Assembly: GCF_012027495.1 (NCBI RefSeq)
Contig: NZ_SNUK01000001.1
Coordinates: forward strand, 310,001-374,000
Direction of reading: 5' to 3'
From: Thermococcus sp. JdF3
GTDB lineage: Archaea > Methanobacteriota_B > Thermococci > Thermococcales > Thermococcaceae
DNA: 64,000 nucleotides
The notes under the pieces are model-generated. The model was given only the letters and a program-made list of their open reading frames with translations, was not told the DNA's origin and searched no databases. Below are positions 14,577 through 25,152 of this stretch, piece by piece. A program made the translations under genes and the position numbers. Within the stretch, counting starts at the first letter, position 1, and each line of letters begins with the position of its first letter.

Positions 14577-14639
14577 CGCCAGCGTTGCGTGGCGAAGCGG
14601 TTAAATACAACCTCTTCCAAATCATCATCGGGTGCGGAA

Positions 14640-14828
14640 ATGGAAGGCATTGAGTACATATATGACGAACACGGACGGATCAGGGGTGTTATCATCCCCC
14701 CGGAGCTGTGGGAGAAATTAAAGGGTGAACTCTTTGAGCCGTCGAGGTACAGGGGCATATACCGGGGTAAGAGAGAGATAGAGAAGAGCCTGAAGGAGCT
14801 GAGGGACGAATGGGAGAGGGGTTTCTAA
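14640..14828 (+). CDS. antitoxin, VapB-like
   Basis: The 62-residue acidic/basic protein (MEGIEYIYDEHGRIRGVIIP, then a helical tail ending RDEWERGF) is directly upstream of and overlaps a PIN-domain toxin. Size, order and overlap identify it as the antitoxin. The N-terminal beta-hairpin with DEHGRIRGVIIPPELW resembles the AbrB-like or Phd-like DNA-binding antitoxins of archaeal VapBC pairs. ATG at 14640 is preceded by GGTG. A TTAAATAC promoter-like element is about 40 bases upstream, so the protein probably represses its own operon. Confidence 0.75.
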   Translation: MEGIEYIYDEHGRIRGVIIPPELWEKLKGELFEPSRYRGIYRGKREIEKSLKELRDEWERGF

Positions 14829-15214
14829 TTGACACGAACATTCTCATCTACTACCTCGCCGATGAGATACCCCCAGAGGAGCTTCCAAAAGTCGAGGACA
14901 TCCTGAGAAGCAGTTTCAACGTCTCGATAATCACGAAAATCGAGTTTTTGGGGTGGAGGGGACATACCCCCGAAGGTTTTGAGAAGTCTAGGGAGTTCAT
15001 CGGCTTTGCCCATGTTATACCCCTGACCGACGAGATAGCAGAGCTGGCGATTGAACTCAGGCGGAGAGGCAGAATAAAGCTCCCGGATGCTGTGATAGTG
15101 GCCACTGCCCTCCACCATGATTTAACACTCGTGACGAGGAACGTCAAGGACTTTGAAGGGATCGAAGGCCTCAGAATCTACAACCCCTTCGAAAAGGTCG
15201 ATGCAAAGGATTAG
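14810..15214 (+). CDS. vapC: VapC-type PIN-domain toxin (ribonuclease)
   Basis: The 134-residue PIN domain has the acidic residues of the active site: Asp in FLIDTNILIYY, Glu in ITKIEFLGW, Asp in KLPDAVIVATAL and Asp in TRNVKDFEG. VapC toxins cut tRNA or rRNA and are held inactive by their antitoxin. It overlaps the antitoxin by 19 bases, which indicates coupled translation. The length is complete, so the toxin should be active if released. Confidence 0.9.
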   Translation: MGEGFLIDTNILIYYLADEIPPEELPKVEDILRSSFNVSIITKIEFLGWRGHTPEGFEKSREFIGFAHVIPLTDEIAELAIELRRRGRIKLPDAVIVATALHHDLTLVTRNVKDFEGIEGLRIYNPFEKVDAKD

Positions 15215-15412
15215 CTCCCCTTCGCCTTCTTCATGCCGATTTCGACGCCTTTGGCGATGCTTTTTGGGGAGTTCCTTGTATCTTTCCCTGTAGCTTTTTC
15301 AAGATGTAGAGGCCGTAGAGTGTGAGTTCAGCTGACATAATTGAAAAAGCAAAGAACATAAACCCCGTAAATTCTGAAGAGACTTCGAGATCACTACAGA
15401 TCCATTTCCCTC
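15211..15412 (-). pseudogene. remnant of a small membrane protein gene
   Basis: In the 266-base gap between the two toxin-antitoxin pairs, the minus strand encodes protein-like stretches in two frames. One reads EFTGFMFFAFSIMSAELTLY followed by GLYILKK; the other, after a shift near 15290, reads SPKSIAKGVEIGMKKAKGS and stops at 15211. Together they look like a roughly 65-residue protein with one membrane helix and a basic tail. A TATTATAC element and GGGGGGAGG lie upstream near 15415-15435, but the ATG there runs into TAG after three codons. Two lesions suggest a decayed gene. No function is known. Confidence 0.35.
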
Positions 15413-15480
15413 CCCCCGGAGGGTATAATACTGGGCGAAGCGGTTAAATACCGTGAGGCCAACATTAATCCGGTGGGATA

Positions 15481-15732
15481 ATGGGAAAGAAGATAGTGGT
15501 TGAGCTTCCCTCAATGGTCAAGATACCCGATGAGGAGGTAGAGATGAGGGTCAAGATCGAGCTTGCGCTCCGTTTGTACGAGAGGGGCATACTGTCCTTC
15601 GGACAGGCTAGGAAGCTTGCCGGAGTGAGCAAGTGGGAGTTCATCGAACTCCTTGAGAAGGAGGGAAGAGGAATACCTTACGATGAAGAAGAGCTTGAAA
15701 GCGACCTCAAGGTTCTGGAGGAGCTCTCATGA
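15481..15732 (+). CDS. UPF0175 family antitoxin
   Basis: The 83-residue protein carries the UPF0175 core: ELALRLYERGILSFGQARK followed by LAGVSKWEFIELL, a helix-turn-helix-like segment in which S-F/x-GQA and A-G-x-S are characteristic. The family is found beside DUF3368 PIN-like toxins, exactly as here, and is taken to be the antitoxin and autoregulator. Its stop codon overlaps the next start (ATGA). The promoter GGTTAAATACC is at about 15440. Confidence 0.85.
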   Translation: MGKKIVVELPSMVKIPDEEVEMRVKIELALRLYERGILSFGQARKLAGVSKWEFIELLEKEGRGIPYDEEELESDLKVLEELS

Positions 15733-16220
15733 GGGTTGCCGTGAACTCCTCGCCGCTGATATTCCTCGCCAAGCTTGGACTCCTTGATGTGCTTGGGAAA
15801 CTCTTCGATGAGGTTTACGTAACCGACGCCGTTTACTGGGAGACCGTTGTCGAGGGCGCGGGGCGGGAAGAGGCGATATTGATTGAGAAGGCAGATTTCC
15901 TCAGGAGAGCCTCTGTGGAGAACCAGCACCTCGTAAAGTTCCTTCTGGAGCTGATAGACTATGGGGAGGCCGAGACGATAGCGCTGGCCATCGAGAGGAA
16001 ACTCGATCTGGTCGTCCTGGACGATAAGGATGCCCGAAAGGTTGCGAGGGGCTTTGGCCTGAGGGTTACGGGGACGCTCGGAATTCTGCTCCTGGCGAAG
16101 AGACGGGGCCTGATTTCTGAAGTCGCCCCCTACATCGAGACGCTCAAAAAGCATGGCTTCAGGATCTCTGATGAAGTTGTCAAAAAGATACTGGAGAGCG
16201 CTGGAGAGAATTGGCACTGA
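15729..16220 (+). CDS. DUF3368 PIN-like toxin
   Basis: The 163-residue protein belongs to the DUF3368 branch of the PIN fold: VAVNSSPLIFLAKLGLLDVL at the N-terminus replaces the usual first Asp motif, followed by GEAETIALAIERK and LVVLDDKDARKVAR with the acidic cluster, then GTLGILLLAKRRGL. In this family the toxin role is inferred from pairing with UPF0175; direct biochemical data are scarce. The 4-base overlap with the antitoxin supports one operon. Confidence 0.87.
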   Translation: MRVAVNSSPLIFLAKLGLLDVLGKLFDEVYVTDAVYWETVVEGAGREEAILIEKADFLRRASVENQHLVKFLLELIDYGEAETIALAIERKLDLVVLDDKDARKVARGFGLRVTGTLGILLLAKRRGLISEVAPYIETLKKHGFRISDEVVKKILESAGENWH

Positions 16221-17425: not shown

Positions 17426-18091
17426 TCACCTTGCACTCCCGTCCAGGTATGCTATCATGTCGCCGTCGACTATCTGGAGGGTAGGCCCCTTGACGAAGAC
17501 GAGGGCGTGCCGCCTGTTCCGCAGCTGAATCCTTACGACGGTTGTGGCTATCTCCTCCAGCTCCGGTATCGGGTTGGTTCTGAGGGCGGAAACCACACTT
17601 CTGTTCAGTATGTAGAACGAGACATGGCTCTCGTCCCCAAGCCGCTCCTTTATGGCTCCGGTCATCATGTAGAACTCGCGTTTGCTTTCAAAGAATGCGA
17701 ACAGCCTTTCTATGCCGAGGGTTATGTGTATGTATCTCTCACTGGGGGCGGCTTTTTTGAGGGCCGCTCTGTGCCGGCTTAGATACCTGGCGGCGTCGCT
17801 CTCTATGCCTATCCTCGCCACGACGTTTCCGATGCTCTTGACCCCGCCTGTTTTTATGACGCTGACGTCTGTAAAATCCTCGTCTATTCCAAGGAACCGG
17901 AGATGTTCCCTGACTACGTGAAGTGAGTCCAGGATGTCGTCCACGTAAACGGGTACCCCCTTCTTTCTTCCGTACTCTGCTATCAGACGGGTCATCAGAG
18001 CGGTCCCGTAGGGGGATTCGTTCTCCACCAGAATCACATCGCCGAAAAAGACGCTGTCCAGGTACTCATGGACCCTTTCCGTGGAAAGCAT
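17426..18091 (-). CDS. DUF257 family protein (second copy)
   Basis: The 221-residue protein belongs to DUF257, a family known mainly from Thermococcales. It shares a common plan with its upstream neighbour: HEYLDSVFFGDVILVENESP, YGRKKGVPVYVDDILDSLHV, REHLRFLGIDEDF, ITLGIERLFAF and PIPELEEIATTVV. The fold has alternating strands and helices like a RecA or KaiC-type domain, but there is no P-loop lysine motif. Function is unknown. It overlaps the first copy by 26 bases, so the two are translated together. Confidence 0.82.
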   Translation of the reverse strand: MLSTERVHEYLDSVFFGDVILVENESPYGTALMTRLIAEYGRKKGVPVYVDDILDSLHVVREHLRFLGIDEDFTDVSVIKTGGVKSIGNVVARIGIESDAARYLSRHRAALKKAAPSERYIHITLGIERLFAFFESKREFYMMTGAIKERLGDESHVSFYILNRSVVSALRTNPIPELEEIATTVVRIQLRNRRHALVFVKGPTLQIVDGDMIAYLDGSAR

Positions 18092-18755
18092 CGAGCATCA
18101 CCTCCAGGCTCACCTCGTACTCCCTCCCCAGGAGTTCCCTCACCGGTGTCTTCAGGAAGGTGACCTTTGCACTGACCGGGGTGGGGGTTATCTCCACAAC
18201 GGTGCTCGCTATGTACTCCAGTTCCGGCAGGGGGTTGAACTCCAGGGTTGAGGCCACCTCCGTGTTCATCAGGTACGCCGCCTTTCTCTTTGTGTTTCCG
18301 AGCATCTTCTGAAGTTCAGTTATGAACAGATAGTACTCCCTGGGGCTGTTGATGAAGGCAAAGAGCCTTTCCAGGCCGAGGACAATGTTTATGGAGTCGT
18401 TAATTTCGGCGAGTGCGTTTTTCATGGTCTCTTCGTACTTTTTTATGTAAACAAGCGGCTCCGAGCTGAACTCCACACTGGCTATTACGTTTCCAACGTT
18501 TATCCTGCCGCCCGATTTCACGACGAGTGCATCGTTGAAATCCTCCTCGATTCCCCAGAACCTGAGGTGCTTCTGGATCACATGGAGGGAATCAAAATTA
18601 TCGTCTATGACTATCGGGACGTCCCTCTTCCTCCCATACTCCATCAGCAAAAGAACGAGGAACTCGGGTGCGTAGGATGGATGGTACTTCACGAGAACGC
18701 TCTCCCCTGACTGTACCATATCAACTATTCTGAAAAGCTCCTCGAGCTGCTCCAT
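18066..18755 (-). CDS. DUF257 family protein (first copy)
   Basis: The 229-residue paralogue of the downstream gene aligns throughout: VDMVQSGESVLVKYHPSYAP, YGRKRDVPIVIDDNFDSLHV, QKHLRFWGIEEDF, IVLGLERLFAFINSPREYY and PLPELEYIASTVVEI. The strictly kept D-D-x-x-D-S-L-H-V and G-L/I-E-R-L-F-A-F motifs suggest a ligand or partner site. ATG at 18755 follows GGTGAGA. A TATA element lies about 40 bases upstream. The pair looks like a recent tandem duplication followed by divergence. Confidence 0.82.
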   Translation of the reverse strand: MEQLEELFRIVDMVQSGESVLVKYHPSYAPEFLVLLLMEYGRKRDVPIVIDDNFDSLHVIQKHLRFWGIEEDFNDALVVKSGGRINVGNVIASVEFSSEPLVYIKKYEETMKNALAEINDSINIVLGLERLFAFINSPREYYLFITELQKMLGNTKRKAAYLMNTEVASTLEFNPLPELEYIASTVVEITPTPVSAKVTFLKTPVRELLGREYEVSLEVMLDAFHGKGP

Positions 18756-18788
18756 AGTTCTCACCGTTCAGAGTTTTACCATGGGATG

Positions 18789-18867: not shown

Positions 18868-20115
18868 TCAGAGCTTCACCAGGTGCACTGAGCAGGAGAT
18901 GCACGGGTCGAATGCCCTGACGGTCTCCTCGAGTCTCTGTATCATGGCCATCTCGTCAGCCTCGCCGTAGAGCTCCCTTGCCTCTTCCAGCAGGCTGGCC
19001 TCCATCATCGCGTGGTTCAGCGCGGTTGGGGTTATTATGTTAGAGTAAGCGACCTTGCCGTTGCCGTCTATCCTGTAGTGGTGTATCAGAACTCCCCTCG
19101 GCGCCTCCACGTAGCCTATTCCCTCACCCTCCCTGGCTTCAACAGGGACGTTCTCCCCTTTGATGCCCCTATCCAGAAGAACCTTGGCTATCTCGTTTGC
19201 CCTCTCAAGGGAGTAAACCAGCTCTATCGCCTGGGCGAGGTTGTTGTAGCTCACGTACCCTGTGGCAAGCTTGTCTCTGTGCTCCTCGAAGAGCCTCTTT
19301 GCCGTGGGAGTCAGCATGTCCGCCTTGAGGAGGAGTCTTGGGAGGGCGCCAACGAAAAATGGTTCCCCCTTATAGCGGCTCTGCTTTGCGAAGCTGTACA
19401 CGAGGGAGCGCTCCTCTATCCGCTCGGTGTAGTGGAACTGTTCTCCCTCCTCCGATACCAGCTTTTCGCCCCAGAGGTAACCGTCGGTGGCGACGAAGTG
19501 TTCCGCCCGTGCGCCGTACGGGTCCAGCTGGGCGAAGAGCCTTACCGCCCTCCTGGCCAGCCTGAGGAGTGCCTCACTTTCCTTCTCCACCCTCTCAAGC
19601 TCTTCCACGGAGGGATACCTGCCGAAGCCGCCTGGCTTGACGTTTATACCGTGTATCTCCCGGCCGCCTACCAGCACCCTTATCCTGTTGCCGAAGGACT
19701 TGAGGGCCAGGCCTTCCTTCACAAGCTCGCCGTGTTTGGTCGCCATCCGTATAGCATCGGGATACCCAAAGACGTCGGGGGCAACGAGGAGGTATAGGTG
19801 CAGTGCGTGGCTTTCCAGCAGTTCGCCGATGAGTCCGAGCTCCCTGATGAGCTGAATCTCCTCCGGAACCTCCACGCCGAAGGCCCTCTCAATGCCCAGA
19901 ACCGAGGCGACGCTGTGGGAGAGGTAGCAGATGGCACATATCCTCGCTTCGAGATCGGGCACGTCGTAGTAATGCCTGCCAAGGGTTAGAAGCTCGAAGA
20001 ACCTCGGTCCCTCGATGATCTTAAGCCTGACGTCCTTTACCTCCCCGTCCTCTATGACGATCTCCGCCTTGCCGTTGCCCTCAACCCTCGTAAACTCGTG
20101 GAGTTCTATTATCAT
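18868..20115 (-). CDS. hydA: cytosolic NiFe-hydrogenase large (alpha) subunit
   Basis: This is the catalytic subunit of the soluble NAD(P)H-linked hydrogenase/sulfhydrogenase of Thermococcales, which oxidises or evolves H2 at a NiFe centre. The proximal motif is RICAICYLSHSVASVLG (C60, C63) and the distal motif is DPCISCSVHLVKL at the C-terminus (C405, C408, H411). Only four residues follow the final His, so a long C-terminal extension for maturation cleavage is absent. ATG at 20115 follows GAGGTGGGAG and overlaps the small subunit TGA (ATGA). It is the last gene of the four-gene operon beta-gamma-delta-alpha. Confidence 0.96.
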   Translation of the reverse strand: MIIELHEFTRVEGNGKAEIVIEDGEVKDVRLKIIEGPRFFELLTLGRHYYDVPDLEARICAICYLSHSVASVLGIERAFGVEVPEEIQLIRELGLIGELLESHALHLYLLVAPDVFGYPDAIRMATKHGELVKEGLALKSFGNRIRVLVGGREIHGINVKPGGFGRYPSVEELERVEKESEALLRLARRAVRLFAQLDPYGARAEHFVATDGYLWGEKLVSEEGEQFHYTERIEERSLVYSFAKQSRYKGEPFFVGALPRLLLKADMLTPTAKRLFEEHRDKLATGYVSYNNLAQAIELVYSLERANEIAKVLLDRGIKGENVPVEAREGEGIGYVEAPRGVLIHHYRIDGNGKVAYSNIITPTALNHAMMEASLLEEARELYGEADEMAMIQRLEETVRAFDPCISCSVHLVKL

Positions 20116-20852
20116 GGCTCCCACCTCGCGAAGGTCTTGAACTTCCTTATGATGTATTCGTCATCGTAGCCGAGCTCCCTGAGTACCTCGTATTCGCCCG
20201 CGGGGTTCACTTCTCCGGGCAGCGGACCGCGGCAGCCGATGCATCCCAGACCCGAGCGCACGCAGACCGCGTTGCAGCCGCCGTAGGTTATCGGGCCGAG
20301 GCAGGGGAGGCCCTTCTTCACCAGCACGCACTCGTATTCATTGAGCTTGCACTCGAGGCAGACGGGGTAGTCCTTCCTGACGGGCTCGATGCCCTTGGCG
20401 ATGTCCAGGAGCACCTGATAGACCTCGTTCTTGTCGTAAGGACAGCCTGGGAGCGCGAAATCAACTGCCACATACTCCACCACCGGCTTTGAATCGAGGG
20501 CACGCATCGGATTGCCTTCATCTCCGTAAACGGCCTTCAGCTTTTCTCTGATTGGCAGCTCAACGCTGGCCTGAACCGAGCCGTGGGTTGCGCAGGTTCC
20601 GAGTGCTATCAGGTAATCGGAGTGGTTCCTCGCCTCCTTGAGCAGGTTCAGGTCGCGCTGGGTCGAGACTGTTCCGGTAACGAGGGCGACGTCGTAGTGG
20701 TTTCCCTCGCTCAGACTGGTTGCCATGTGGAACTCGGTTATCTCGTAGAACTCAAGGAGGTCGAAGAGCCTCTCGTAGAGGAAGAGCATGTTCAGGGCAC
20801 AGCCACCGCAGTCGGTAAGCTCGAAAACCCCCAGCTTGAGCTTGTCCATCAT
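20112..20852 (-). CDS. hydD: cytosolic NiFe-hydrogenase small (delta) subunit
   Basis: The 246-residue protein holds the Fe-S relay from the NiFe site. The proximal cluster motif is ELTDCGGCALN, followed by LGTCATHGSV, then a run of cysteines (CLECKLNEYEC, GLPCLGPITYGGC, SGLGCIGCRGPLPG). There is no Tat signal, in keeping with a cytosolic enzyme. Two adjacent ATGs (20852, 20849) overlap the gamma stop; the first has the better spaced GGGGG site. All four hydrogenase genes overlap by a few bases, which indicates strict co-translation. Confidence 0.95.
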   Translation of the reverse strand: MMDKLKLGVFELTDCGGCALNMLFLYERLFDLLEFYEITEFHMATSLSEGNHYDVALVTGTVSTQRDLNLLKEARNHSDYLIALGTCATHGSVQASVELPIREKLKAVYGDEGNPMRALDSKPVVEYVAVDFALPGCPYDKNEVYQVLLDIAKGIEPVRKDYPVCLECKLNEYECVLVKKGLPCLGPITYGGCNAVCVRSGLGCIGCRGPLPGEVNPAGEYEVLRELGYDDEYIIRKFKTFARWEP

Positions 20853-21724
20853 ATCAACCCCCTCGTGGAGAGAGCGTCCCAGTAGGTGAAGACCGGGCCG
20901 TCCTGGCAGATGTACTTCATGGAGACACTTGTTCCGACGACGCAGTGGCCGCATTTGCCGACTCCGCAGCGCATGCGCCTTTCAAGGGTCATGTAAATCC
21001 TGCCCGGTGAGAGCTTCCTGTCCAGGAGCTCCTTTATGACGAACTTGTACATGACCGGCGGGCCGCAGATGAGGGCGTATGCCCTGTTAACGTCAAACTC
21101 CTCTCCCCTGAAGAGGTCGGTAACGACGCCTCTGCAGACCCTGTCCGAGAACCCCTGCTCTAGGTAGATGCACGATGGGCTTTCGACCTCGTAGGCCAGC
21201 TTTACCGAGCAGTTCATGGCCTCACCGTGCTTGAGGAGGTGAATTATCTCGTCGCGGAAGAGTATGTCCTCGTAGGCCTTGGTTCCGTAGAGCAGCCAGA
21301 CGTTCTCGTATTTGCCGGTGTCGATGGCGTACCAGAGCACCGAGCGGAGGGGAGCCATTCCAAGGCCACCTGCTACAAGAATCAGGTTCGAGCCCTCCAT
21401 CTTTTCCATCGGGAAGCCGTTGCCGTAGGGCCCGCGGATTCCTACTACGTCCCCTTCTTTCATTTTGTGAACGAACTTGGTCATTCTGCCGACCTTTCTG
21501 ATGCAGAGCTGGAGGTAGCCCCTCCTCGTGGGTGAAGAGCAGATGCTTATCGGGAACTCTCCGAAGCCGCGGATATCGACTATGACGAACTGCCCGGGCC
21601 TGAAGTCGAACTTGGCCTCGACCTCTGGGTCGAGGAAGCGCAGGGTGAAGAGTTTCTCCCTCGATGTTAAGTCCTTCACTTCGAGAATCCTTGCGTCGTA
21701 CGTCTGGTACGGGTTCTCGCTCAT
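20849..21724 (-). CDS. hydG: cytosolic NiFe-hydrogenase gamma subunit (FAD/NAD(P) reductase)
   Basis: The 291-residue protein belongs to the ferredoxin-NADP reductase superfamily. It has an FAD-binding barrel (RPGQFVIVDI, FPISICSSP), the NAD(P) domain (LILVAGGLGMAPLRSVLWY, ALICGPPVMYKFV) and a C-terminal [2Fe-2S] motif (RRMRCGVGKCGHCVVG and the later YICQDGPVF). It passes electrons between pyridine nucleotide and the Fe-S chain of the beta subunit. Length is normal. It is encoded between beta and delta with overlaps on both sides. Confidence 0.95.
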   Translation of the reverse strand: MSENPYQTYDARILEVKDLTSREKLFTLRFLDPEVEAKFDFRPGQFVIVDIRGFGEFPISICSSPTRRGYLQLCIRKVGRMTKFVHKMKEGDVVGIRGPYGNGFPMEKMEGSNLILVAGGLGMAPLRSVLWYAIDTGKYENVWLLYGTKAYEDILFRDEIIHLLKHGEAMNCSVKLAYEVESPSCIYLEQGFSDRVCRGVVTDLFRGEEFDVNRAYALICGPPVMYKFVIKELLDRKLSPGRIYMTLERRMRCGVGKCGHCVVGTSVSMKYICQDGPVFTYWDALSTRGLI

Positions 21725-22725
21725 TTCAGGGACCCCCTAACCTCCTCAAGAACTTTAACGTGCTCTATCTTCGCCGGGCAGAACTCGTCGCAGCGGCCGC
21801 AGCCGACGCAGTTGTAGCCCGAGGAGGGGTCAAAGTAGCTCTTGCAGTAGTAGCGGTGCCTGAAGCGGTCCAACCGCGTGGGCCTGAAGTTGTAGTTGCC
21901 CGCAACGAGCCCGTGGTTCTCCATGAAGCAGGAGTCGTAGCGTCTCTCGCGCACCGAGCTGTAGGCGTCCATCCAGCGGTCGCAGACCTCGTAGCAGCGG
22001 CAGGTCGGACAGACGAGGTTGCAGTTGCCGCAGGCGAGACATATTTCGGCGTACTTTTTCCACACCGGGCTGTTGTATGCCAAATCGAGCATGTCGGCGA
22101 GGCCCTCCTGCGGGACTTCCTTCTGGAAGGCCTTTGCACGTTTTTCTTCGAACTCCTTGAAGTTGGCGAGGTCTTCGTCGGTCACCTCCTCGAACAGCTC
22201 GCCGTTCTCCCAGACTATCTCGTGGCCGCGGACGCTTCCGATTCTGACCAGCCAGCCGTCGGGAAGCTCGTGGAGAAACAGGTCGAAGCCGTCCATTGCG
22301 AAGTGTGTCCCGAGGCTCTTGCAGAAGCAGTACTCGTCGGGCATACAGCTTATTCCTATTATTAAAGTCTTCTCGCGCCTGCTCTTGTAGTACGGATCGG
22401 CCGGCTCGTCGAGGTATACCCTGTCGAGTATCTTAAGACCGTGAATGTCACAGGAGTGGAGCCCGAAGAGAACCGTCGGTTCCGCTTCAAGGTTTTCTTC
22501 CCAGTGGCCGTTCTTCAGCCTGAGAATAGCCTCTTTGGGTCTGAAGAAAAACTTCTTCGGCGGAAGCATGGTTCTGTTGTAATCCAGGGCTATCTCCGCC
22601 GGGTCGTGCACTTCCTGGAAAGAATAGATGCCCCCTCTTTTGACCGGGGCATAAACACTGCCCCAGGCCTCAAGGGACTTGAAGAACTTCCCAAAGTTTT
22701 CGGAGGGCAGTTTTATATATCTCAA
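21721..22725 (-). CDS. hydB: cytosolic NiFe-hydrogenase beta subunit (Fe-S)
   Basis: The 334-residue Fe-S protein links the flavoprotein to the hydrogenase core. It contains two 4Fe-4S motifs near the C-terminus (CLACGNCNLVCPTC and CVGCGRCDEFCPAKIEH) and upstream cysteines (CDIHG, CMPDEYCFC). Start choice: TTG at 22725 (MRYIKLPSENF) is preferred because GGTGAT lies 4 bases upstream and relatives are remembered as beginning MRY-KL; ATG at 22731 or GTG at 22734 are alternatives. First gene of the operon, transcribed from the divergent regulatory region shared with the NuoE-like gene. Confidence 0.94.
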   Translation of the reverse strand: MRYIKLPSENFGKFFKSLEAWGSVYAPVKRGGIYSFQEVHDPAEIALDYNRTMLPPKKFFFRPKEAILRLKNGHWEENLEAEPTVLFGLHSCDIHGLKILDRVYLDEPADPYYKSRREKTLIIGISCMPDEYCFCKSLGTHFAMDGFDLFLHELPDGWLVRIGSVRGHEIVWENGELFEEVTDEDLANFKEFEEKRAKAFQKEVPQEGLADMLDLAYNSPVWKKYAEICLACGNCNLVCPTCRCYEVCDRWMDAYSSVRERRYDSCFMENHGLVAGNYNFRPTRLDRFRHRYYCKSYFDPSSGYNCVGCGRCDEFCPAKIEHVKVLEEVRGSLK

Positions 22726-22752
22726 GGGCATCACCGCCTTAAATGGGATTAC

Positions 22753-22764
22753 ATTTTTAAGTTT
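22753..22764 (-). promoter_or_regulatory. promoter of the hydrogenase operon
   Basis: On minus, AACTTAAAAAT forms the TATA region about 30-35 bases upstream of the proposed TTG start. The SurR-like boxes lie about 40 bases further upstream, the position expected for an activator. Confidence 0.55.
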
Positions 22765-22799
22765 GTAAAGAATTGATTTAAGAATTTTTCAAACGAATG

Positions 22800-22822
22800 G
22801 TTACCAACCAGATGTTACAAAC
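22800..22822. promoter_or_regulatory. two abutting SurR-type operator boxes
   Basis: The plus strand reads GTTACCAAC, then CAGAT, then GTTACAAAC. This fits GTTn3AAC-n5-GTTn3AAC. SurR of Pyrococcus/Thermococcus is a redox switch that binds GTTn3AAC-n5-GTT, activates hydrogenase genes without sulfur and represses others. Here the second box is complete too. The site is between the two divergent promoters, about 20 bases upstream of the plus-strand TATA and about 40 from the minus-strand one, so it may control both operons. Confidence 0.82.
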
Positions 22823-22840
22823 TTGTACTTTAGTGCACGC

Positions 22841-22848
22841 TTATAAAC
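22841..22848 (+). promoter_or_regulatory. promoter of the NuoE/NuoF/GltD-like operon
   Basis: TTATAAAC is about 45 bases upstream of the ATG at 22893. The leader contains GGTGAT at proper distance from that ATG. The SurR-type boxes end 18 bases upstream of this TATA element. Confidence 0.65.
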
Positions 22849-22892: not shown

Positions 22893-23357
22893 ATGGAAGC
22901 CTCGTTCGATTACATGCGCTCTTATCCGCCGGAACCGAGTTCCCTAATCCCTCTTCTCCAGAGAACCCAGGAGCGCTTTGGCTACCTTCCCAGGGAGGCC
23001 CTTGAAGAGATTGCGAACTACCTCGGGATTCCCCTCAGCAGGGTCTACGGGGTCGCGACTTTCTACGCCCAGTTCCGCTTCGAGCCCCTCGGGAAGTACG
23101 TCGTCAAGATCTGCCACGGAACTGCCTGTCACGTCAACGGTGCCGTCAACATAGCGCAGGCCATAACCGAGGAGCTCGGGATTGAGGAGGGTCAGACGAC
23201 CGAGGACGGCCTTGTAACGCTGGAGCGCGTCGCCTGCCTCGGCTGCTGCAGCCTTGCCCCGGTGATAATGATAAACGAGAAGGTCTTCGGCAAGCTGAAC
23301 CCTGACAAGGTGAGGAAGCTGATGAGAAAGCTCAGGGAGGGGAAGCTCGATGTCTGA
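22893..23357 (+). CDS. NuoE-like [2Fe-2S] subunit of an NfnABC/Bfu-type oxidoreductase
   Basis: The 154-residue thioredoxin-like [2Fe-2S] protein resembles NuoE, HydC and HndA. Motifs include LLQRTQERFGYLPREALEEI, GVATFYAQFRFEPLGKY and four cluster cysteines in KICHGTACHVNGA and ERVACLGCCSLAPV. It is the small subunit of soluble NADH-dependent complexes, including bifurcating hydrogenases and transhydrogenases. ATG at 22893 follows GGTGAT. It overlaps the next gene by 8 bases. As first gene of a SurR-flanked operon facing the hydrogenase, it is likely made under the same conditions. Confidence 0.9.
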   Translation: MEASFDYMRSYPPEPSSLIPLLQRTQERFGYLPREALEEIANYLGIPLSRVYGVATFYAQFRFEPLGKYVVKICHGTACHVNGAVNIAQAITEELGIEEGQTTEDGLVTLERVACLGCCSLAPVIMINEKVFGKLNPDKVRKLMRKLREGKLDV

Positions 23358-25152
23358 AATCAAGGCCATAGCGGTCGGCATGAACTCCTGCGGTATAGCG
23401 GCTGGAGCCAAAGAGACGTACGAGGCGATAAAGGCCGAGCTTGAGAGGAGAAACCTTGATGTGAAGCTCAAGATAGTCGGCTGCGTTGGCATGTGCTACC
23501 GCGAGCCTCTCGTGGACATCATCACCGAGGACGAGATAATCACCTACGGCCACGTCGACCCGAAGAAGGTTCCGAGGATTATAGAGGAGCACGTCATTAA
23601 TGGAAAACCCGTAGAGGAGTGGGTGGTCAAGCGCGACTGGTGGGAGAACGGGGAAAGAAAGACGTGGGACGTTGACGGCTACTTTGCCAAGCAGAAGAAG
23701 ATAGTGCTCGAGAATTCGGGATACATTGACCCCGAGAACATCGATGAGTACATAGCTGCTGGCGGCTACGAGGCCCTCAAAAAGGCCCTCAAGATGGAGC
23801 CCGAGGAGATCATCGACGTAATCATGAAGTCAGGCCTGAGGGGAAGGGGCGGAGCGGGCTTCCCGACGGGGCTGAAGTGGAAGTTCGCCCGCGAGGCTAA
23901 GGGCGACGTCAAGTACATCGTCTGCAACGCCGACGAAGGTGATCCTGGAGCCTTCATGGACAGGAACGTCCTTGAGGGCGACCCGCACAGGGTAATAGAG
24001 GGCATGATAATCGGCGCCTACGCGATTGGAGCAACCAAGGGCTTCATCTACGTTCGCGCCGAGTACCCGCTCGCGATAAGGAGATTGAAGATAGCGCTGA
24101 AGCAGGCGCGCGAGATGGGATTCCTCGGCGAGAACATCCTTGGCTCGGGGTTCTCCTTCGACATCGTCATCAAGGAAGGTGCCGGGGCCTTTGTCTGCGG
24201 TGAGGAAACCGCTCTGATAGCCTCGATAGAGGGCAGGCGCGGAATGCCGAGGCCGAGGCCGCCGTACCCGGCTCAAAAAGGCCTCTGGGGCAAGCCCACG
24301 AACATCAACAACGTCGAGACGTGGGCAAACGTGCCGTGGATAATAAAGCACGGCTGGGAGGCCTACGCCTCAATCGGAACGGAGAAGAGCAAAGGAACGA
24401 AGGTTTTCGCCCTCTCCGGCAAGATAAAGCACGGCGGAAACGTCGAGGTTCCGATGGGCATGACCCTGAGGGAGATACTCTACGATATCGGCGGCGGGAC
24501 GAAGACCGGTAAAAGAATAAAGGCCGTCCAGCTCGGCGGTCCTTCAGGTGGCTGTATCCCGGAGTACCTCTTTGACACTCCCGTTGATTACGAGAGCGTC
24601 AACGCAACCGGTGCAATAATGGGAAGCGGCGGAATGGTCGTCATGGACGAGGACACCTGTATGGTCGATGTCGCCAAGTTCTTCCTGGACTTTACCGTGA
24701 AAGAGTCCTGCGGGAAGTGCACCTTCTGCCGCCTCGGAACAAAGAGGATGTGGGAGATTCTGGACAAGTTCACCCAGGGCAAGGCCACCGAGGAAGACCT
24801 TGAGAAGCTCGAAAGGCTCGCCTACCAGGTCAAGGCCGGCTCTCTCTGTGGTCTCGGCCAGACCGCCCCGAACCCGGTTCTCACGACAATCCGCTACTTC
24901 AGGGACGAGTACATGGCCCACATCGAAGGAAAATGCCCGGCCAAGGTCTGCAAGCCACTCATAAGGTACGTTATAATCGCCGACAGGTGCACCGGCTGTA
25001 CGGCATGTGCGATCTTCTGCCCGGTGAAGGCGATAAGCGGCGAGAGGCTCAAGCCCCACGTCATCAACCAGGACGAGTGCATCAAGTGCGGGACCTGCTA
25101 CGAGGTGTGCCGGTTCAACGCCATCGAGATAGTCGATGCGGGGGGTGAGTGA
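23350..25152 (+). CDS. NuoF-like NADH/flavin subunit of an NfnABC/Bfu-type oxidoreductase
   Basis: The 600-residue protein has the HydB/HndC/BfuB domain order. Residues 1-110 form a thioredoxin-like [2Fe-2S] domain (GMNSCGIAAGAKE, VGCVGMCYREP). Residues 150-400 form the NuoF core with the glycine-rich flavin/NADH loop GLRGRGGAGFPTGLKW and NADEGDPGAFMDRN. CGKCTFCRLGTKRM and CGLGQTAPNP bind the 4Fe-4S cluster. The C-terminus adds two ferredoxin motifs (CTGCTACAIFCPVKAI and CIKCGTCYEVCRFNAI). This is the usual bifurcating-type architecture; activity is inferred from family knowledge, not shown by sequence alone. Confidence 0.9.
   Translation: MSEIKAIAVGMNSCGIAAGAKETYEAIKAELERRNLDVKLKIVGCVGMCYREPLVDIITEDEIITYGHVDPKKVPRIIEEHVINGKPVEEWVVKRDWWENGERKTWDVDGYFAKQKKIVLENSGYIDPENIDEYIAAGGYEALKKALKMEPEEIIDVIMKSGLRGRGGAGFPTGLKWKFAREAKGDVKYIVCNADEGDPGAFMDRNVLEGDPHRVIEGMIIGAYAIGATKGFIYVRAEYPLAIRRLKIALKQAREMGFLGENILGSGFSFDIVIKEGAGAFVCGEETALIASIEGRRGMPRPRPPYPAQKGLWGKPTNINNVETWANVPWIIKHGWEAYASIGTEKSKGTKVFALSGKIKHGGNVEVPMGMTLREILYDIGGGTKTGKRIKAVQLGGPSGGCIPEYLFDTPVDYESVNATGAIMGSGGMVVMDEDTCMVDVAKFFLDFTVKESCGKCTFCRLGTKRMWEILDKFTQGKATEEDLEKLERLAYQVKAGSLCGLGQTAPNPVLTTIRYFRDEYMAHIEGKCPAKVCKPLIRYVIIADRCTGCTACAIFCPVKAISGERLKPHVINQDECIKCGTCYEVCRFNAIEIVDAGGE

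Follow-up and report, generated by a model that had tools for sequence, protein, structure and literature searches.

Positions 22792-22830 of the window (the whole stretch analysed, 64,000 nucleotides of Thermococcus sp. JdF3) are probably a common SurR operator within a divergent promoter, from which reduced SurR would activate the operons on both sides when sulfur is absent. One operon encodes sulfhydrogenase II (SHII) and the other a bifurcating enzyme of the Nfn-Bfu type. An earlier note on this DNA had proposed that SurR controls both operons from a single site, and the sequence comparisons point the same way through half-sites that are frozen while their spacers drift, a fixed spacing to both TATA boxes, retention of the array after SHII was lost, and the presence of a gene for SurR itself. 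That SurR binds and occupies the array, and in which direction it regulates, is what we infer from these observations.

The genes of the two flanking operons are as follows.

18868-20124, minus strand, ShyA, sulfhydrogenase II alpha (NiFe catalytic) subunit, NF040828 above cut-off
20112-20954, minus strand, ShyD, sulfhydrogenase II delta subunit, NF040831 above cut-off
20849-21724, minus strand, ShyC, sulfhydrogenase II gamma subunit, NF040830 above cut-off
21721-22734, minus strand, ShyB, sulfhydrogenase II beta subunit, first gene of the operon, NF040829 688.5 bits (curated cut-off 690)
22893-23357, plus strand, BfuC, NuoE-like with a thioredoxin-like [2Fe-2S] domain, PF01257 (5e-54)
23350-25152, plus strand, BfuB, NuoF-like core with FMN domain, SLBB, NADH_4Fe-4S and C-terminal 2x[4Fe-4S], PF01512, PF10589, PF10531 and PF13237
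25136-28012, plus strand, BfuA, Nfn type, GltD/NfnL-like FAD-NADP domain fused to NuoG-type Fe-S domains, PF07992, PF14691, PF13510 and PF22117

The minus-strand operon ShyB-C-D-A is SHII as defined by the curated equivalog models. ShyB scored just under the cut-off of its model but far higher than the 429.5 bits obtained with the model of the paralogue HydB. The true start of ShyD lies probably further in, since the model match begins at residue 39. The plus-strand operon BfuC-B-A is, judged by its domains, of the Nfn-Bfu bifurcating type and fits the description of the enzyme of T. sibiricus. BfuB combines FMN/NADH, SLBB and C-terminal Fe-S domains in the Pfam searches and is accompanied by BfuC, and BfuA carries Pyr_redox_2, Fer4_20 and Fer2_4 in one protein of 958 amino acids, in which the NfnL/GltD-like domain takes the place of the H cluster. 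BfuB of genome G078, which we take to be T. sibiricus, is 89% identical to the BfuB found here. Two DUF257 genes (17426-18764) adjoin the SHII operon; DUF257-like genes are also located beside the SHII/Bfu locus of Palaeococcus pacificus (L259) and near Bfu in G024 (L222). At 14589-16220 the window contains two pairs of a small-protein gene and a PIN-like gene, resembling VapBC toxin-antitoxin systems.

Between the two operons the following elements were identified.

22775-22782, minus strand, predicted TATA box of the SHII operon, GATTTAAG (CTTAAATC on the minus strand), from sequence, 9 bp from the array
22783-22791, BRE-like stretch TGAAAAATT beside the SHII TATA box
22792-22830, no strand assigned, six half-sites in one register: AAC 22792-22794, GTT 22800-22802, AAC 22806-22808, GTT 22814-22816, AAC 22820-22822 and CTT 22828-22830
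22800-22822, plus strand, core of two SurR-type boxes, GTTn3AAC-n5-GTTn3AAC, exact and single in the window
22825-22838, plus strand, imperfect palindrome GTACTTTAGTGCAC (motif GTRCTTYARTGYAC) between the array and the Bfu TATA box, strongly conserved across genera
22840-22847, plus strand, predicted Nfn-Bfu TATA box CTTATAAA, 17 bp beyond the last AAC and 9 bp beyond CTT

Two complete boxes had been read at 22800-22822 in the earlier note, and the letters GTTACCAAC-CAGAT-GTTACAAAC on the plus strand are exactly those. This core is real, but the extent given was too short, as the feature spans at least 22792 to 22830 in register; a third and a sixth half-site, the mirror symmetry and the partner interchangeable with NfnI had all been missed. 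The double-box pattern GTTn3AACn5GTTn3AAC matched once in the window, against a mean of 0.00 in 100 dinucleotide-preserving shuffles. The long SurR motif, consensus GTTn3AACn5GTT, gave three overlapping exact matches at the array, one on the plus and two on the minus strand, the third of which (minus strand) takes the array leftward to 22792; the rest of the window held none, with 0.21 expected. Genome-wide pattern searches with reversed-pattern controls found 38 long motifs in the strain's own genome and 10 matches to the reversed pattern, and the form with five half-sites, AACn5GTTn3AACn5GTTn3AAC, occurred there only once. The mirror centre of the array is position 22811 and the symmetry is broken by a single letter, CTT in place of GTT. 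The CTT half-site was identified post hoc from its register and invariance and lies also within the second conserved element (22825-22838).

As had been stated before, the array lies upstream of both divergent predicted TATA boxes, and it stands 9 bp from each, the position at which an activated SurR promoter would carry its site. The SHII TATA box is a prediction, because it was chosen by conservation and the adjacent BRE-like stretch; columns -22 to -18 on this side were nearly invariant across the loci compared. A downstream TTTACAAA, favoured as the SHII TATA box by crude TATA scoring in many genomes, was dropped on the same grounds. Between the SHII TATA box and the SHII start, GTTTGTAAA at 22761-22769 carries five of the six SurR-box letters; it is kept in most SHII loci and gone where SHII is gone, and may possibly be a weak downstream SurR site. 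Elsewhere in the genome, the long motifs that precede surR, a hypF-like gene and an mbh-type operon commonly stop 7-11 bp short of the TATA box, whereas around genes of the mbs, xfn and nsr types sites were also found at or downstream of the TATA box. For this comparison the gene types were called by eye, using the starts of the translations. Across all long motifs of the genome the mean TATA score was highest at 9-11 bp.

Approximately 70 intergenic regions of Thermococcaceae and two SHII loci of Methanodesulfokora were compared. The array of five half-sites was present in 45 Bfu loci (44 genomes), where 14 of its 15 letters were invariant and the spacers variable; the sole varying letter was a T to G change in one GTT, in nine genomes. 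As these genomes are related, the independent observations are effectively fewer than 45. When mapped on a tree built from the SHII beta subunit, the half-site columns (18 with CTT counted) required two changes in total (mean 0.11), whereas the spacer columns had a mean of 6.6 in 39 loci (P=6e-8 for changes per column, phylogeny-aware counts). Relatedness by itself was rejected as the cause of the conservation, since this tree shows about 60-fold more change in the spacers than in the half-sites. Each of the 45 Bfu promoters, without exception, has its TATA box 17 bp after the last AAC, and none has a GTTn3AAC downstream of that box. The check across relatives that had been suggested thus found the array kept in orthologous promoters, and loss of the boxes with co-regulation retained, which had been named as contrary evidence, was seen at 0 of 45 Bfu loci. 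In the two Methanodesulfokora SHII loci, outside the Thermococcales, the array was absent, with scores no better than those of shuffled sequences. A Bfu-like match in G003 (L204, C181), NuoF-like at 61% identity on a short contig and without the array, was excluded, being probably a contaminant of that assembly.

The genome encodes a SurR orthologue (P0001) with an N-terminal CxxC (...LTCTECYF...) and E=4.7e-92 over 228 residues to the PF0095 structure 2qlz, and SurR is encoded in 92 of the 94 genomes of the family. Sites with this regulator's consensus were found in the genome at surR itself and at gene types known from the SurR regulon. The mechanism may be depicted as follows: Without elemental sulfur, reduced SurR would bind the mirror-symmetric array of GTTn3AAC boxes with its 14-bp period and help to bring the transcription machinery to the TATA boxes that lie 9 bp past either end. 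SHII, acting on H2 and NADP(H)/NAD(H), and Nfn-Bfu, acting on NADPH, NAD+ and ferredoxin, would then be switched on together. When sulfur is added, the CxxC of SurR would become oxidised, SurR would be released and expression of both operons would drop.

A published RNA-seq study of P. pacificus bears on this switch. The hydrogenase genes PAP_01490-01505 were down 2.66-3.20-fold with sulfur, and PAP_01510-01525, termed 'complex I' genes, were slightly down (PMC6981617); the comparison was made after prolonged growth and not upon a shift to sulfur, and HypF, contrary to a simple SurR model, was up with sulfur. The SHII and BfuCBA genes of P. pacificus (G002) are adjacent at the expected place (L259, 273888-279076), and the 'respiratory complex I' genes of that study therefore appear, from gene order and position, to be Nfn-BfuCBA and the next gene. 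The hydrogenase, named SHI there, appears to be of the SHII type. Read in this manner, both sides are lower with sulfur, in agreement with the proposal that sulfur switches the two enzymes together.

The two sides could also respond with opposite signs, SHII being activated by SurR bound at the array and Bfu being repressed or unaffected, in the way described for NfnI of certain species; we regard this as unlikely, although it is the strongest of the alternatives. The NfnI promoter of G026, which from the position of its SHII we take to be T. onnurineus, has a gap of 17 bp from the last GTT to the TATA box, versus 9 bp at Bfu. In T. onnurineus, NfnI (TON_0057) was detected only with sulfur and SHII (TON_0054) only without (PMC4463584), so that the sign at a common site may differ, and Nfn has been placed under negative control by SurR (PMC8595942). 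The Bfu promoters differ from this NfnI type, being 9 bp from an in-register half-site with no box downstream of the TATA box in any of the 45 loci, and the Palaeococcus 'complex I' genes go slightly down with sulfur. Co-activation is preferred over opposite signs because the Bfu promoters share one unvarying geometry, that of the activation type.

Much less probable is that SHII alone is regulated by SurR and that the boxes are kept for SHII, their position upstream of Bfu being due to chance. SHII is a published SurR target with the long motif 67-69 bp upstream (PMC12162507, PMC8595942), and in NfnI lineages of genus g4 (G074, G075, G079) the array accompanies SHII while NfnI has its own TATA box about 88 bp off. 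Against this stand the fixed 17-bp spacing on the Bfu side and the fate of the array where SHII is gone. Bfu occurs without an SHII operon in five genomes: G018, with only a decayed ShyB remnant, G024 (presumably T. kodakarensis), G027, G049 and G057. In all five, the five half-sites are kept upstream of Bfu and the SHII TATA box has decayed and is lost; the array is therefore maintained for Bfu too.

In SHII loci without Bfu whose upstream region was covered, the divergent gene was NfnI-S in 23 of 23. NfnI-S (at least 78% identity) was found in 25 genomes and in none of the 44 Bfu genomes, a mutual exclusion of Nfn-Bfu and NfnAB that Schut et al. 2022 had described before (PMC9304861). Mapped on the SHII tree, the partner changed nine times, at least six of which are forced by well supported branches, and Bfu and NfnI have thus been swapped at least six times in one slot beside SHII. 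In NfnI loci of genus g4 and of G093 (L169, L170, L174, L175, L192) the stretch that separates the array from the TATA box proper to NfnI contains a decaying remnant of a Bfu promoter, the footprint of a Bfu replaced by NfnI. Insertions were also observed that part SHII from the array, one of about 1 kb and transposase-like in G076 (L182) and one of about 94 bp with repeated TAAGTTTGT in G063 (L178). We tentatively suggest, with somewhat more doubt than confidence, that the fixed mirror-symmetric SurR module might be a docking slot in which the unrelated Nfn-Bfu and NfnAB were interchanged at least six times, and that a swap might alter the sulfur logic, Bfu being co-activated with SHII and NfnI being expressed in several lineages when SHII is not.

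The second conserved element, GTRCTTYARTGYAC, was present in 40 of the 94 family genomes with 44 matches, most of them at the Bfu promoter. A search for a second regulon returned few other matches, without common context save one promoter in G024 and G068, and the motif was treated as specific to the Bfu promoter because its matches elsewhere lack such context. The palindrome is a candidate for a core-promoter extension or the site of a second factor. It is very improbable that the conservation is owed to a regulator other than SurR whose site is a GTT/AAC-like palindrome, or to nothing more than the general transcription factors, since, even with GTRCTTYARTGYAC adjoining the Bfu TATA box, consensus and spacing of the array equal the published SurR values and similar sites in the genome are found at surR and genes of SurR-regulon type.

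Earlier publications cover SurR and its motif, the place of SHII among its targets, and a SurR site common to SHII and NfnI (PMC8595942, PMC12162507). For SurR at Nfn-Bfu, the mirror-symmetric array and the repeated exchange of partners, no account was found in the literature covered; the Bfu version of the common promoter, its symmetry and the partner swapping appear to be new. Control from the array would put the regulation of Nfn-Bfu, of which no description was found in the literature covered, under the master sulfur switch. It would also offer a compact case of one symmetric operator from which an archaeal activator drives two promoters. The exchange of unrelated bifurcating enzymes in one slot constitutes a natural experiment on the co-evolution of promoter wiring and enzyme choice.

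Among known systems, the Nfn-Bfu enzyme itself is closest to Nfn-BfuABC of T. sibiricus (PMC9304861), likewise a three-subunit bifurcating enzyme of the NADPH/NAD/ferredoxin type, for which bifurcation was shown and ferredoxin was reduced with NADPH only if NAD+ was present. That study deals with the enzyme and its exclusion with NfnAB, and neither control by SurR nor a linkage to SHII was found in the passages covered. FNOR1 and FNOR2 of T. kodakarensis (Hidese et al. 2017, tabulated in PMC12016516) are similar as ferredoxin:NADP oxidoreductases linked to SurR, FNOR1 reaching higher levels with sulfur and FNOR2 in its absence, but they are NfnAB-type paralogues at other loci. For the Bfu genes of T. 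kodakarensis, no expression data were found in the literature covered. The SHII promoter of T. barophilus, with a long motif 67 bp upstream (PMC12162507 Table 2), is orthologous to the one described here, the coordinates in G086 agreeing with that study; on its opposite side is NfnI, and there the array is degenerate with a best score of 12/15. Similar in layout is the SHII/NfnI promoter of T. piezophilus, where the long motif lies 69 bp upstream of SHII and 72 bp upstream of NfnI (PMC8595942 Table 2). It shares the regulator motif, the hydrogenase, the divergent arrangement and the site between the operons, but the partner is NfnAB (NfnI) and not Nfn-Bfu, and a single long motif was reported without mirror symmetry. 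Species with Bfu and species with NfnI form a contrast that is directly testable after the addition of sulfur.
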